IMG/VR virus record: IMGVR_UViG_3300032182_000187
Coordinates: 1-64,000 of that record
Source of the DNA: a virus
Length of the DNA stretch: 64,000 nt
Strand: one strand, 5' to 3'
Below are positions 2,642 to 63,964 of the stretch, in pieces (the stretch's first letter is position 1; each line of letters begins with the position of its first letter). Made by a program: the position numbers and the translations under genes. The notes under the pieces are model-generated. The model had not been told where the DNA came from, did not search any database, and saw nothing but the letters and a program-made list of their open reading frames with translations.

Positions 2642-3472
2642 TTATCCGATCATATCCATGGGTGGAAGGGTGTATTTGGATGGCATGTCCGCTTCTAATT
2701 CCATGACTTCTTTATTACCATCCTCCCAGATCTGGCGACCATTAAGTGTAATGCCACCAGGGAGTTGAACATTCTGATACTTGATTAAGTTCTGTCCCCA
2801 CTGTCTCTTCATTAGAGCAGTAGTGTATCTCTTGACAAAACTGTCATCATATACTTGAGTAAACTCATCTGGATCAAGTGCTCTGTGGCACTCAATCAAC
2901 AGATAGTTATCTTCTACAATTCTGCTAGGATCAATGTCAACAAACAAACGATCCTGTCGCTTGTTAAATCTAAACTGAACAAGTTGTCCAGTGTTAACTA
3001 CCATGTCGATAGTTTCAAAGTATTGCTTGATCATATAGAAGTTTGTAAGATCAAATCTACCAAAAGCAAATCCTGAAGAGAATGAGAACATATCCATCAG
3101 GAAGTATTGGTTGCTTAGACCAAATAGATCATTGCGAACCCAGTTGGAAGATACACCAAACACTTTAGAAACACCCAGAACATGGTCTGGAATTTCAATA
3201 AAGTTCTTTCTATTCTCCCATGTAGCAGTATCTGGATCAGGAGTTGAAGCAGTTTCGTTAGTCTCGGTAAAACGAGTAACATCCTCTGCTGTGATCTGAT
3301 GCTTCAGATACATTCTTTCTACCCCATCATAATGCCACTCTTGGTAAAATTGAAGAGCGGTGTCAACAATATCATCTACCTGTTCGTCTGCGATATTAAT
3401 CTGCAGCACAGGAGCACCTAACTGCCTCTTGCAATAATCAATTAGTTCTTGGCGTGATGATGGCTTTGCCAT
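2642..3472 (-). CDS. 13: gp13-like neck protein
   Basis: A 276-residue protein starting MAKPSSRQELIDYCKRQLG, characteristic of cyanophage gp13. With gp14 it forms the collar that completes the filled head and accepts the tail. Conserved family stretches include FYQEWHYDGVERMYLKH near residue 42. It is the first gene after a terminator hairpin that carries a late-promoter motif in its loop, so it probably heads the neck/packaging transcript gp13-14-15-16. Confidence 0.9.
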   Translation of the reverse strand: MAKPSSRQELIDYCKRQLGAPVLQINIADEQVDDIVDTALQFYQEWHYDGVERMYLKHQITAEDVTRFTETNETASTPDPDTATWENRKNFIEIPDHVLGVSKVFGVSSNWVRNDLFGLSNQYFLMDMFSFSSGFAFGRFDLTNFYMIKQYFETIDMVVNTGQLVQFRFNKRQDRLFVDIDPSRIVEDNYLLIECHRALDPDEFTQVYDDSFVKRYTTALMKRQWGQNLIKYQNVQLPGGITLNGRQIWEDGNKEVMELEADMPSKYTLPPMDMIG

Positions 3473-48813: not shown

Positions 48814-49206
48814 TTATCGTGATCTCTCCAAGAAGAATTCTACGTTTAGTGGTAAATCATCACGACCAATAACTTCAAATTCAAGACTTACTTCAAAACC
48901 ATTGTCATCATAGTTGGGGACTACTCTTAGAGACTCGATACGAATTCTTGGTTCGTACTCCTCTAATGTTCTAGTAATCTCAGCTTTGACTAACGCAGCA
49001 GTACCATAATCTAAGGGTTCAAACAGTAAATTGGTGATTCCAGACCCAATTTCAGAATTAAAAAGTCTCTCTCCACGATTGGTCAATAATAAGTTGACAA
49101 CCGCCTGCTTAATAGCAGCATCCCCCTTTACCACGACTAGATCGTCGGTAACGGGATGTGCCTTGAAAGTAATTGAGAGATCTTTAAAAGTCTGAAATTG
49201 TGGCAC
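48814..49206 (-). CDS. 25: gp25-like baseplate wedge protein
   Basis: About 130 residues of the GPW/gp25 family: QFQTFKDLSITFKAHPVTDD, the conserved AIKQAVVNLLLTNRGERLFN with its glycine-arginine turn, and SGITNLLFEPLD. gp25 joins wedges to the sheath initiator in T4-like baseplates. I took the GTG at 49206 (Met-Pro-Gln-Phe) since the longer in-frame start is a TTG at 49215. The downstream gp6 start abuts the stop. A CTAAATA at 49228-49234 lies just upstream. Confidence 0.88.
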   Translation of the reverse strand: MPQFQTFKDLSITFKAHPVTDDLVVVKGDAAIKQAVVNLLLTNRGERLFNSEIGSGITNLLFEPLDYGTAALVKAEITRTLEEYEPRIRIESLRVVPNYDDNGFEVSLEFEVIGRDDLPLNVEFFLERSR

Positions 49207-49227
49207 TGGACACAAAACGTTTCTTAT

Positions 49228-52775: not shown

Positions 52776-52961
52776 CTAGAATTCGATGGGATCTAGTGTA
52801 CCGTTGTTGATGCTAACTCCCTGAGAGATAGTATCACCAACTGCCTGTACGGTTTGCATCACCTCGGTCTGACAATCGCTGGTGATAGCATCAAGAATCT
52901 GCAGGATTTGTGCTCCATTGCTACCCTTACGGAGCAGAGAAATCATCACGTTGGTGTTCAT
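52776..52961 (-). CDS. Small protein next to the 24-nt repeats (61 aa)
   Basis: A 61-residue protein: MNTNVMISLLRKGSNGAQIL, QILDAITSDCQTEVMQTVQA, ending NNGTLDPIEF. A helical first half and polar second half. The open frame reads on upstream through the repeat array without an ATG, giving an eight-residue periodic peptide that I regard as accidental. Its leader is only ~20 nt from the repeats, so they may regulate it. Unknown family. Confidence 0.7.
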   Translation of the reverse strand: MNTNVMISLLRKGSNGAQILQILDAITSDCQTEVMQTVQAVGDTISQGVSINNGTLDPIEF

Positions 52962-52980
52962 AATACAAATGCAATTTGAT

Positions 52981-53124
52981 TGGGTTTGTATTAGTAATAC
53001 ACTGTGTGTTAGTATTACTAATAGATAGTGAGTTTGTATTAGTATTACATAGTGAGTTTGTATTACTAATACATTGTTAGTTTGTATTAGTATTAGATAG
53101 TGAGTTTCTAATACTAATACAAAC
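52981..53124. repeat. Six tandem 24-nt iteron-like repeats
   Basis: Six consecutive 24-nt units (boundaries at 53005, 53029, 53053, 53077 and 53101). The plus-strand consensus is TGAGTTTGTATTAGTATTA followed by variable bases ending TAG or TTG. Units 1 and 4 contain the 13-nt dyad GTATTA-(G/C)-TAATAC. The array is AT-rich and non-coding by my reading, flanked by a 12-bp inverted repeat. Confidence 0.9.
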
Positions 53125-53126
53125 AA

Positions 53127-53165
53127 ACAGTTATTAAAGGTTAATGCTTATCTTTTAATAACTGT
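53127..53165. repeat. 12-bp inverted repeat beside the tandem repeats
   Basis: ACAGTTATTAAA at 53127-53138 and its exact complement TTTAATAACTGT at 53154-53165, with a 15-nt spacer. It touches the end of the 24-nt array. Confidence 0.8.
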
Positions 53166-53985: not shown

Positions 53986-54222
53986 TCAGACTGCAACAAT
54001 CTGAAGAGTTTTGTCCTCTTTGATCGATTTGTTGACGAATTTGCCAACAGAACGACCATTTTGAACAATATCAGTCATAGTATTGACAAAATCAACACTA
54101 TTAATACCATTTAGAGCATATTTGTACTCATTACCACTAGTAGTATAGGTGATCATAACATCACTGTCATTTACCTCTACTTTACTAATAGCAGAAGAGT
54201 TCAAATTGTTAAAGGAAGTCAT
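53986..54222 (-). CDS. KTSC-like domain protein (78 aa)
   Basis: A 78-residue protein resembling the KTSC domain: SSAISKVEVNDSDVMITYTT then GNEYKYALN, and the helix-turn NGRSVGKFVNKSIKED matching the 'S.G.F.N..I' ending of that family. KTSC domains are small, often phage- or RNA-related beta domains of poorly known role. It has a terminator-like hairpin between it and the DnaA-box region upstream, leaving ~28 nt of leader. Confidence 0.7.
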   Translation of the reverse strand: MTSFNNLNSSAISKVEVNDSDVMITYTTSGNEYKYALNGINSVDFVNTMTDIVQNGRSVGKFVNKSIKEDKTLQIVAV

Positions 54223-54250
54223 AGTTAGTTAATGGTTAACTTTTAAAATT

Positions 54251-54293
54251 AAAAAATCTCATTTATTAAACTTTTTAAGTTTTTGAGATTTTT
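54251..54293. terminator. AT-rich nested hairpin terminator
   Basis: Outer stem AAAATCTCA/TGAGATTTT (54253-54261 with 54284-54292) encloses AAACTT/AAGTTT. T or A tracts lie on both sides, so it could stop transcription in either direction. Confidence 0.65.
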
Positions 54294-54492
54294 GATTTAT
54301 CGAAGTTTTAGGAAAGTTGCCAATCCCTCAACCTCGATACATCTAATATACTCGGAATGCTTGGATATGTCAAGGTCTGTGTGCCACTTCGAGGTCTGTC
54401 CATTAGTCCTTGACTTTCGATAGCAGGTGTGCTAAGGCAACAAGACCTCCGTACATTACAGAACATTACCTATGTTTTTTAAACCATTTCTT

Positions 54493-54525
54493 TTTTCCAC
54501 AGGTTTTTCCACAATGTTTTCCACA
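54493..54525 (+). other. Three DnaA-box-like sequences at 12-nt spacing
   Basis: TTTTCCACA occurs at 54493-54501, 54505-54513 and 54517-54525, all in the same direction with exactly 12 nt from start to start. TTTTCCACA is the DnaA box used in cyanobacteria. They lie in the 54294-54573 non-coding spacer, beside a T-rich run. The rest of the spacer holds short repeats (GGTCTGT twice, GTCAAGG/CCTTGAC) and no gene. Confidence 0.85.
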
Positions 54526-54573
54526 GGCACTATATCAAGTGTCCATAAACCCTGACACACACTAGAGAGTGGT

Positions 54574-55164
54574 CTAAGAGTAATAACTAATATTCAGTGG
54601 AGAATTACCATATGATGTACACAGTTCTGCTGGTGTACAATCAAATGCCAATGTAATCCTTCTATGGTCAGTATAGTTAGGTGTTACATCATGTTGGAGT
54701 ACAGAAGGGAACAATGCAATAGTATTTGCTTTTGGTTCATAGATGAATTCTTCTGTATTATATGGTGTTGGATATGTAGTATCCAGTTTAGTCACCATAC
54801 AGAAATCTTTCGTGAAAGCATGTGGTTTACGAATACAAAAGTTCCCACTGTTAGGCGGTACATCAATGAATACAACACCAGAGATGATGGAGTTACCATG
54901 ATAATGTGTTTGAGCAAAATCCATGTGACCATGGAAGTTTAACCAAGATGATGTAATGTTTACCTTTGTCTTATGTCCTGTTAGTTCTATGTACTTGTCT
55001 ATGTGTTGTTTTACTTGTTCTAACAGGAGAGGAAAAACATTTAAAATATCTCTATTGTATGATGTACGACCATTCCCACATGACTCCATGCGTATGTTAT
55101 CCCAATGTGTTTCTTCAATTGTAATTGGTTCAATGTAGAGTGGTGTGGGAAATAGGTCAATCAT
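54574..55164 (-). CDS. Putative 2OG-Fe(II) oxygenase (TIGR02466-like)
   Basis: A 196-residue protein of the same kind as the oxygenase at 5245-5850: SSWLNFHGHMDFAQTHYHGN (His87 and His89), ISGVVFIDVP, and the distal FPSVLQHDVTPNYTDHRRIT (His157, Arg167). The 'W.N.....QTHYHGN..SGV.Y(I/L)' framework is typical. Probable hydroxylase; substrate unknown. It ends before a long non-coding spacer and starts 4 nt inside the upstream gene (ATGA). Confidence 0.8.
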   Translation of the reverse strand: MIDLFPTPLYIEPITIEETHWDNIRMESCGNGRTSYNRDILNVFPLLLEQVKQHIDKYIELTGHKTKVNITSSWLNFHGHMDFAQTHYHGNSIISGVVFIDVPPNSGNFCIRKPHAFTKDFCMVTKLDTTYPTPYNTEEFIYEPKANTIALFPSVLQHDVTPNYTDHRRITLAFDCTPAELCTSYGNSPLNISYYS

Positions 55165-62746: not shown

Positions 62747-63964
62747 CTATTTAATATCGATAGCGGGTTCACCCTTATCGAAGATAGTTGATACAACCTC
62801 GTTCAAACGTTGACGAGTGTTCTTACCGTAGTTCTTGAACACAGGCACAGTAACAAAACCAGTGCTCTTGCGATACATGGAGAAGTTACCAGCAGGGATT
62901 TTGCCAGACTGAATGTCAGCACTGTCCTCTTTGTTGAGACGAATCACACGACCAATAGTCTGTGCCATCTCAATGACAGGGAGATTACGGAGAAGAATAG
63001 TATGTGTCAGACCACTCACATTGATGCCTTCAGAAAGAATGCTGTAGTGGAAAATGATGAACTTACGATCACGCTGCATACCCCAACGATTAAGAGTCTG
63101 GAAGAACTCATCACGGGTCACTTTTTGTTGATTGACATAGGCACCATGCTTGCTGGTGATGTGCATGACATCATAACCACGCTGAGAGAGGTCTGTAAGG
63201 ACCTGTGTGGTCGATAGCATGTTCCACAGTACCTTTGTGCTAGGAGCAGCGACAAGGACCTTCTGGGCGTTGCTAGCGTCCAGTCTGTCAATCATGTCGA
63301 TGAGAGTCTGTGCATCATTCTCAGCAGCATTTGATTTGCATCGCTCGATGTCAACCTCATGGATATCAATCGTAGGACGCAGAATGCTGCCCTGTTGTAC
63401 AAGTTCAGGTGCAGGCACGTTAGCAATAATATCACCGAAGATGATACGATTGTTCATGCCATTGCCATTCCTTCTATGCTTAGGAGTAGCAGTGAAGTAA
63501 TAATAGTTGTCAGCATCACAAACACTGACATAATCAAAGAAATCTTTGCGTACTCCATTGTGTGCTTCATCGAAGTAAGCAACACTGATGTCAATCTCAG
63601 ACTCATTAACACGACGCAGTGAGTTGTAGGTAGTGAAGATGATCTTGTGATTGTCAACGATCTCATCCCACTCTTGAATGACAGATGCTTTGGTGGTGCT
63701 CTTGTAGCGTGTCTCTCCACTGTGGACATGGAGAACGTTGGCACAGTCAATAAACTCCATGAACTCACTGCAGAGTTGCTCTGCAAGCAAGATACGTGGA
63801 GCACAGACAACGATGGTCTGGGGTGTGGTAGCGTTCTCGATGCGACGGAGAGCATCAAAGATCATGATCAAGGTCTTGCCAGCACCTGTGGGAGCAATGA
63901 CCTGACCATGTGTGTGCGTGGACAGAGCGTTGAGTGCTCGCTGCTGGTGGGGGCGAAGTTCCAT
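62747..63964 (-). CDS. SF2 DEAH-box helicase (UvsW-like)
   Basis: A 405-residue superfamily 2 ATPase. LRPHQQRAL is followed by the Walker A sequence APTGAGKT (24-31), CAPRILLAEQL (motif Ia), DEAH (132-135), FTATP (motif III, 157-161), a second RecA domain with AAPSTKVLWNML, IIFHYSILSEGINV and MAQTIGRVIRLNK (motif VI, ~345). UvsW of T4-like phages remodels recombination and replication intermediates and unwinds R-loops at origins. This protein is shorter than T4 UvsW (503 aa) and starts directly at the helicase core, so a substrate-binding N-domain seems absent. Confidence 0.88.
   Translation of the reverse strand: MELRPHQQRALNALSTHTHGQVIAPTGAGKTLIMIFDALRRIENATTPQTIVVCAPRILLAEQLCSEFMEFIDCANVLHVHSGETRYKSTTKASVIQEWDEIVDNHKIIFTTYNSLRRVNESEIDISVAYFDEAHNGVRKDFFDYVSVCDADNYYYFTATPKHRRNGNGMNNRIIFGDIIANVPAPELVQQGSILRPTIDIHEVDIERCKSNAAENDAQTLIDMIDRLDASNAQKVLVAAPSTKVLWNMLSTTQVLTDLSQRGYDVMHITSKHGAYVNQQKVTRDEFFQTLNRWGMQRDRKFIIFHYSILSEGINVSGLTHTILLRNLPVIEMAQTIGRVIRLNKEDSADIQSGKIPAGNFSMYRKSTGFVTVPVFKNYGKNTRQRLNEVVSTIFDKGEPAIDIK

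Follow-up and report, generated by a model that had tools for sequence, protein, structure and literature searches.

Why would a T4-like cyanophage carry what look like binding sites for the replication initiator of its host? The question was raised by a 64,000-nt stretch of DNA (here called the window), positions 1 to 64,000 of IMG/VR virus record IMGVR_UViG_3300032182_000187. The source is a 72.5-kb viral record; among named phages, Synechococcus phage Sf-FR1 is the closest to it (94% over the locus). An earlier note, made from the letters of the window, had pointed to three tandem DnaA boxes at exact 12-nt spacing in a non-coding spacer. Use of host DnaA by T4-like cyanophages was not previously known, and our literature searches, confined to open-licence papers, brought up no description of DnaA boxes in a cyanomyovirus. 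We also found no mapping of the replication start of the abundant ocean T4-like cyanophages in accessible papers, in which one theta origin is predicted, that of Syn9.

Anatomy of the spacer

Three exact copies of TTTTCCACA were located on the plus strand, at 54493-54501, 54505-54513 and 54517-54525, with start-to-start distances of 12 and 12 nt. No other exact copy occurs in the 64-kb window. Because about 1.1 copies are expected there singly, the 9-mer is not enriched overall. Under a first-order Markov model of the window, 9e-6 pairs and about 9e-11 triples would be expected by chance at 12-nt pitch, and TTTTCCACA is the only 9-mer in the window to form a period-12 triple. Taking a cluster to be at least two exact copies close together, we find three in 33 bp. 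They lie inside a 351-bp non-coding spacer flanked by two leftward genes, a small gene on the left (53986-54222, minus strand; PHROG 4357, a KTSC-domain protein in the Sf-FR1 annotation) and a 2OG-Fe(II) oxygenase gene on the right (54574-55164, minus strand). The positions, spacing and non-coding setting given in the earlier note were thus all verified. The Sf-FR1 annotation has the same two flanking genes and nothing between them.

The note saw the boxes only. The element is larger than this, at about 350 bp. Beyond its left promoter lies a block of 85% AT (54221-54300) that is the least stable 60 to 80 bp of the window and a candidate unwinding element. P_left, a promoter-like TTGACA-N17-TATATT with 11/12 consensus matches, occupies 54345-54373 on the minus strand and diverges from P_right, a promoter-like TTGACT-N17-TAAGGC with TGC before the -10 (54410-54438, plus strand). 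P_right faces the boxes and runs against the annotated genes. Between the two promoters is an imperfect palindrome, TGCCACTTCGAGGTCTGTCCA (54381-54402; TGACACTTTGCAGGGTGTCA in S-RIM32), which is conserved in the alignment of relatives. The boxes are adjoined by a conserved AT-rich block, TTACCTATGTTTTTTAAACCATTT (54465-54492, plus strand; 79% AT), a possible unwinding stretch downstream of P_right. A right-hand block, AAACCCTGA...CACTAGAGAGTG (54547-54571), is conserved in the alignment as well. Boxes 1 and 2 align with boxes in relatives; at the place of box 3, some relatives have an inverted box or none. In both arms a promoter is followed by AT-rich DNA, P_left by 54221-54300 and P_right by 54465-54492. 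The T-rich DNA that the earlier note had mentioned nearby is present, and no 80-bp segment of the window is less stable than the left block. The idea that the AT block serves as an unwinding element in all these phages was rejected, the element not being among the least stable 80-bp segments in Syn9, S-RIM8 and S-CREM1. A 24/48-nt tandem repeat (GTTTGTATTAGTA...) at 52984-53130, overlapping a small ORF (52776-53126), also belongs to the least stable DNA of the window.

Both promoters look sigma70-like. Across 25 lineages, P_right retains TTGAC in 24 and TA at -12/-11 in 24, with a 17-nt spacer in all of them but ACG-2014a (18 nt); its -10, TAAGGC, is a poor sigma70 match. Conservation extends to parts of the spacer between -35 and -10, which may mean that an additional protein binds there. 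The two -35 hexamers are 37 bp apart in the window and 37 to 41 bp apart in most isolates, the outliers being ACG-2014a, S-RIM2 and S-RIM8 (76 or 110), P-SSM7 (27) and S-H38 (59). A scan found no good P_left at the expected place in S-RIM44, S-RIM32, Sf-CH11 and DSL-LC03. In S-RSM4, S-WAM2 and the ACG-2014 e, h and j isolates, P_left has a TATAAT -10 but a CTCAGA-like or CTCCCA-like -35.

Conservation across the Kyanoviridae

The earlier note had proposed searching related cyanophages for box clusters at the syntenic site. When blastn was run with the spacer and then with diverged copies of it, 35, 129 and 215 phage records were returned, nearly all of them cyanophages (the 215 records are matches to one query). 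Among these are the classical isolates S-PM2, Syn1, Syn9, Syn19, P-SSM7, S-SSM4 and S-RIM8. A comparison of 26 isolates indicates that the spacer is non-coding DNA conserved as a control element, which most of the ocean T4-like cyanophages examined have in the same genomic place. Genes annotated around it in the 26 isolates are almost all on the strand opposite P_right. In S-PM2, a tRNA-Leu and a tRNA-Asn are annotated over the element (NC_006820.1, 19177-19333); ARAGORN finds no tRNA there, and the annotation looks misplaced. Further S-PM2 tRNAs annotated inside genes are without ARAGORN support and look misplaced too.

At least one box is present in the element of 19/26 isolates. Three tandem boxes, as in the window, were found in six (Sf-FR1, S-RIM44, Sf-CH11, Syn1, Sf-CH3 and S-H38), two tandem boxes plus one inverted in four (S-CAM3, S-RIM32, S-PM2 and S-CREM1) and an inverted pair in seven (S-RIM8, S-RIM2, Syn9, P-SSM7, Syn19, ACG-2014a and DSL-LC03). 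S-CAM1 has two boxes, and S-SSM4 has one box plus an inverted TTATCCACA. The remaining 7/26 (ACG-2014 e, h and j, S-CAM4, S-RSM4, S-WAM2 and Sf-CH1b) have no boxes in the element but keep the rest of it. Exact TTTTCCACA sites in the 26 genomes number 133, of which 50 are no more than 300 bp from the element, so that 0.3% of the DNA holds about 38% of the sites. The 9-mer remains unaltered although the boxes are arranged differently, and this speaks for protein sites and not for a hairpin or common ancestry alone. The earlier note's identification of the repeat as the known cyanobacterial DnaA box stands up well: the match to the consensus is exact, the clusters recur at one site in several arrangements, and the 12-nt pitch is found in some cyanobacterial oriCs.

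Several relatives have second box pairs or single boxes about 0.4 to 1 kb left of the element. The extra pairs are at L055 2421/2444, L045 2034/2047 and L123 2482/2503, and the extra single boxes are in L041, L048, L049 and L052 (all locus labels). In DSL-LC03 (locus L057, 2613-2685), five more boxes lie left of the element. At the DnaA-box place of the box-less phages S-RSM4 and S-WAM2, palindromes such as TATTGATTATCAATA and TATTGATTCTCAATT were observed (two copies each, locus positions ~3060-3420), and palindromes like them also lie near the boxes in DSL-LC03 and Sf-CH3; we take such palindromes to resemble cyanobacterial Fur boxes.

The same element is seen in 16 of 37 IMG/VR stretches that have the triple. 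Tandem TTTTCCACA arrays at 12-nt pitch also occur without the element on other IMG/VR phage contigs, one of them with five boxes; such arrays may thus have evolved in further phage groups.

Possible roles of the boxes

Phage T4 provides a precedent for a short origin built on a promoter. T4 oriF and oriG, of about 100 bp, consist of a promoter and an AT-rich unwinding element; the transcript primes synthesis from an R-loop, which is eventually unwound by UvsW (PMC3016281). oriF has uvsW on one side and gene 25 on the other. In the window, the element is flanked at a distance by an SF2 helicase gene on the right (62747-63964, minus strand), which shares PHROG 16 with T4 UvsW, and by the gp25 baseplate wedge gene on the left (48814-49215, minus strand). 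In Syn9, as in the window, the element is between the helicase gene and gp25/gp6; in Syn19, gp25 and gp6 are on the same side. Flanked by these landmarks, the element occupies the interval that corresponds to T4 oriF, with the gene order rearranged.

We consider it somewhat more probable than not that the spacer is a T4-like, promoter-primed replication origin fitted with host DnaA boxes, through which host DnaA would be recruited. This reading is favored because the interval corresponds to oriF, because P_right has the direction of the oriF transcript and because nowhere in the window is the DNA less stable than in the AT block beyond P_left. It also appears to be the most economical role for an element that combines conserved divergent promoters, AT-rich DNA and this position. 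In the predicted order of events, host RNA polymerase would start early at P_left and P_right, if these are active as promoters, and run outwards into AT-rich DNA. There the transcript could remain hybridized to the template strand and act as the primer of DNA synthesis, in the manner of T4 oriF and oriG, giving the element its putative origin activity. Host DnaA, if it binds the box array of the right arm, may help to open the DNA, hold it open or time the first firing, after which the phage replisome and recombination would take over. DnaA is not universally needed, since seven relatives keep the element without boxes. This counts against the origin reading, as do the poor -10 of P_right, the lack of DnaA-trios beside the boxes and the unexceptional stability of the element in Syn9, S-RIM8 and S-CREM1. 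The GC-skew mapping of origins proposed in the earlier note was carried out on Syn9, Sf-FR1, S-RIM8 and S-CREM1 and proved uninformative: the skew does not switch at the element and rises nearly monotonically, as expected if most genes are on one strand.

A more specific version of the origin reading is put forward tentatively, at less than even odds. The element would be a single dedicated hybrid origin, of the divergent-promoter R-loop type, in the place of T4 oriF and with captured host DnaA boxes. The level of the host initiator, which may follow the cell cycle and light, would then gate phage replication, and the phage origin would out-compete a host oriC with few perfect boxes.

The earlier note had left it between an origin, a copy-control site and a decoy whether DnaA is recruited or titrated. 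The boxes and the conserved site stand, and the origin is the most economical of these roles; recruitment, decoy and transcription control are inseparable by sequence. As a decoy, the array would titrate host DnaA as phage genomes multiply, and the host would stop initiating its chromosome without the phage itself using DnaA. The boxes are perfect consensus sites, two or three per genome and seven in and near the element in DSL-LC03, and they can vanish while the rest of the element stays. In 1.6- to 2.3-Mb genomes, probably Prochlorococcus and marine Synechococcus, only 0 to 3 perfect boxes lie near dnaN, no more than in the phage element, so phage copies could compete well for DnaA. A sponge, however, could work anywhere, in any orientation and with no promoter pair, whereas the boxes are concentrated at one conserved site, and two or three per genome are few for titration. 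We regard the decoy as unlikely.

Ranking after the decoy, and likewise improbable, is an early control region in which DnaA regulates the divergent promoters or blocks the path of the P_right transcript. The divergent promoter signals are strong, and in most lineages the boxes begin downstream of P_right, about 35 to 85 nt from its predicted start. In one subset, the distances (72, 82, 83, 94, 102 and 112) suggest a phasing of about 10 bp, but this helical relation of the boxes to P_right is lost when all lineages are included (p = 0.23). Moreover, P_right leads into no known gene, and the genes annotated there run in the opposite direction.

That the repeats are sites of some other protein, form a hairpin in RNA or DNA or arose by chance is very improbable: inverted pairs in some relatives (S-RIM8, AGTTTTCCACA...TGTGGAAAACT) could form a hairpin and a different palindrome (TATTGATTATCAATA) can occupy the site in box-less relatives, but tandem-only arrays, as in the window, cannot form that hairpin, the flanks outside the 9-mers often do not pair (Syn9, ACG-2014a and S-CAM3) although the 9-mer itself is unchanged, the boxes overlap with no terminator and the element has no Rfam match. 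The hairpin or terminator reading is accordingly rejected, and chance is excluded by the expected number of triples and by the 50/133 sites near the element.

Returning to the origin with host DnaA, the element provides a 350-bp candidate that is testable box by box across the Kyanoviridae and that would connect a lytic T4-like phage directly, at the molecular level, with the host initiator. Relatives with 3, 2 or 0 boxes amount to a ready-made natural experiment. The novelty would fall if the published Syn9 prediction, reportedly that of Weigele et al. 2007, has its origin located at 52.6 kb and refers to DnaA boxes.

Comparison with known origins and titration loci

The cyanobacterial DnaA box is TTTTCCACA, and cyanobacterial DnaA binds such boxes in vitro (PMC4674748). 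A 12-nt tandem pair is present in 72/291 Cyanobacteriia genomes. In four small cyanobacterial genomes the pair is near dnaN (~180-390 bp upstream of the match), in clusters of 7 to 10 boxes. The phage element resembles these oriCs next to dnaN in having TTTTCCACA at 12-nt pitch; indeed, one host pair, TTTTCCACAATGTTTTCCACA, has exactly the sequence of phage boxes 2 and 3. In the host oriCs the double box is followed by CTACTACTA, which we read as DnaA-trios of the kind described in PMC8287927. A double box like this one (TTTTCCACAATTTCCGCA), but with no trios, is present in the S-RIM8 phage group, and in the window no DnaA-trio (CTA/TAG triple repeat) was found in the 1 kb around the boxes, against the three or more expected after the boxes of a bacterial oriC with a basal unwinding system. 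Unlike the host oriCs, the phage element has no dnaN or dnaA beside it, its neighbors being phage genes; it has two or three boxes against up to 10, and phage promoters flank it. What are probably the origins of marine picocyanobacteria, beside dnaN, retain CTACTACTA-like trios but have few perfect DnaA boxes.

Escherichia coli datA is a DnaA titration locus. Such loci share with the phage element a cluster of DnaA boxes in non-coding DNA; the phage cluster differs in that it is not on the host chromosome and sits on a conserved divergent promoter pair.

A closer comparison is with Syn9, a member of the same phage group, for which a single theta origin has been predicted, as cited in PMC2984593. 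Syn9 carries the element at ~52.6 kb with an inverted box pair; in S-RIM8 its position is ~41.7 kb. With respect to T4 oriF (ori(uvsY)) and oriG, the putative cyanophage origin differs in having two divergent sigma70-like promoters and DnaA boxes and in lacking uvsY; its landmark genes are several kb off, and gene order and orientations are not identical. It has in common with them a promoter followed by AT-rich DNA, and with oriF a location that has a UvsW-family helicase gene on one side and gene 25 on the other, and a P_right that points from the gp25 side to the helicase side, as the oriF transcript does.
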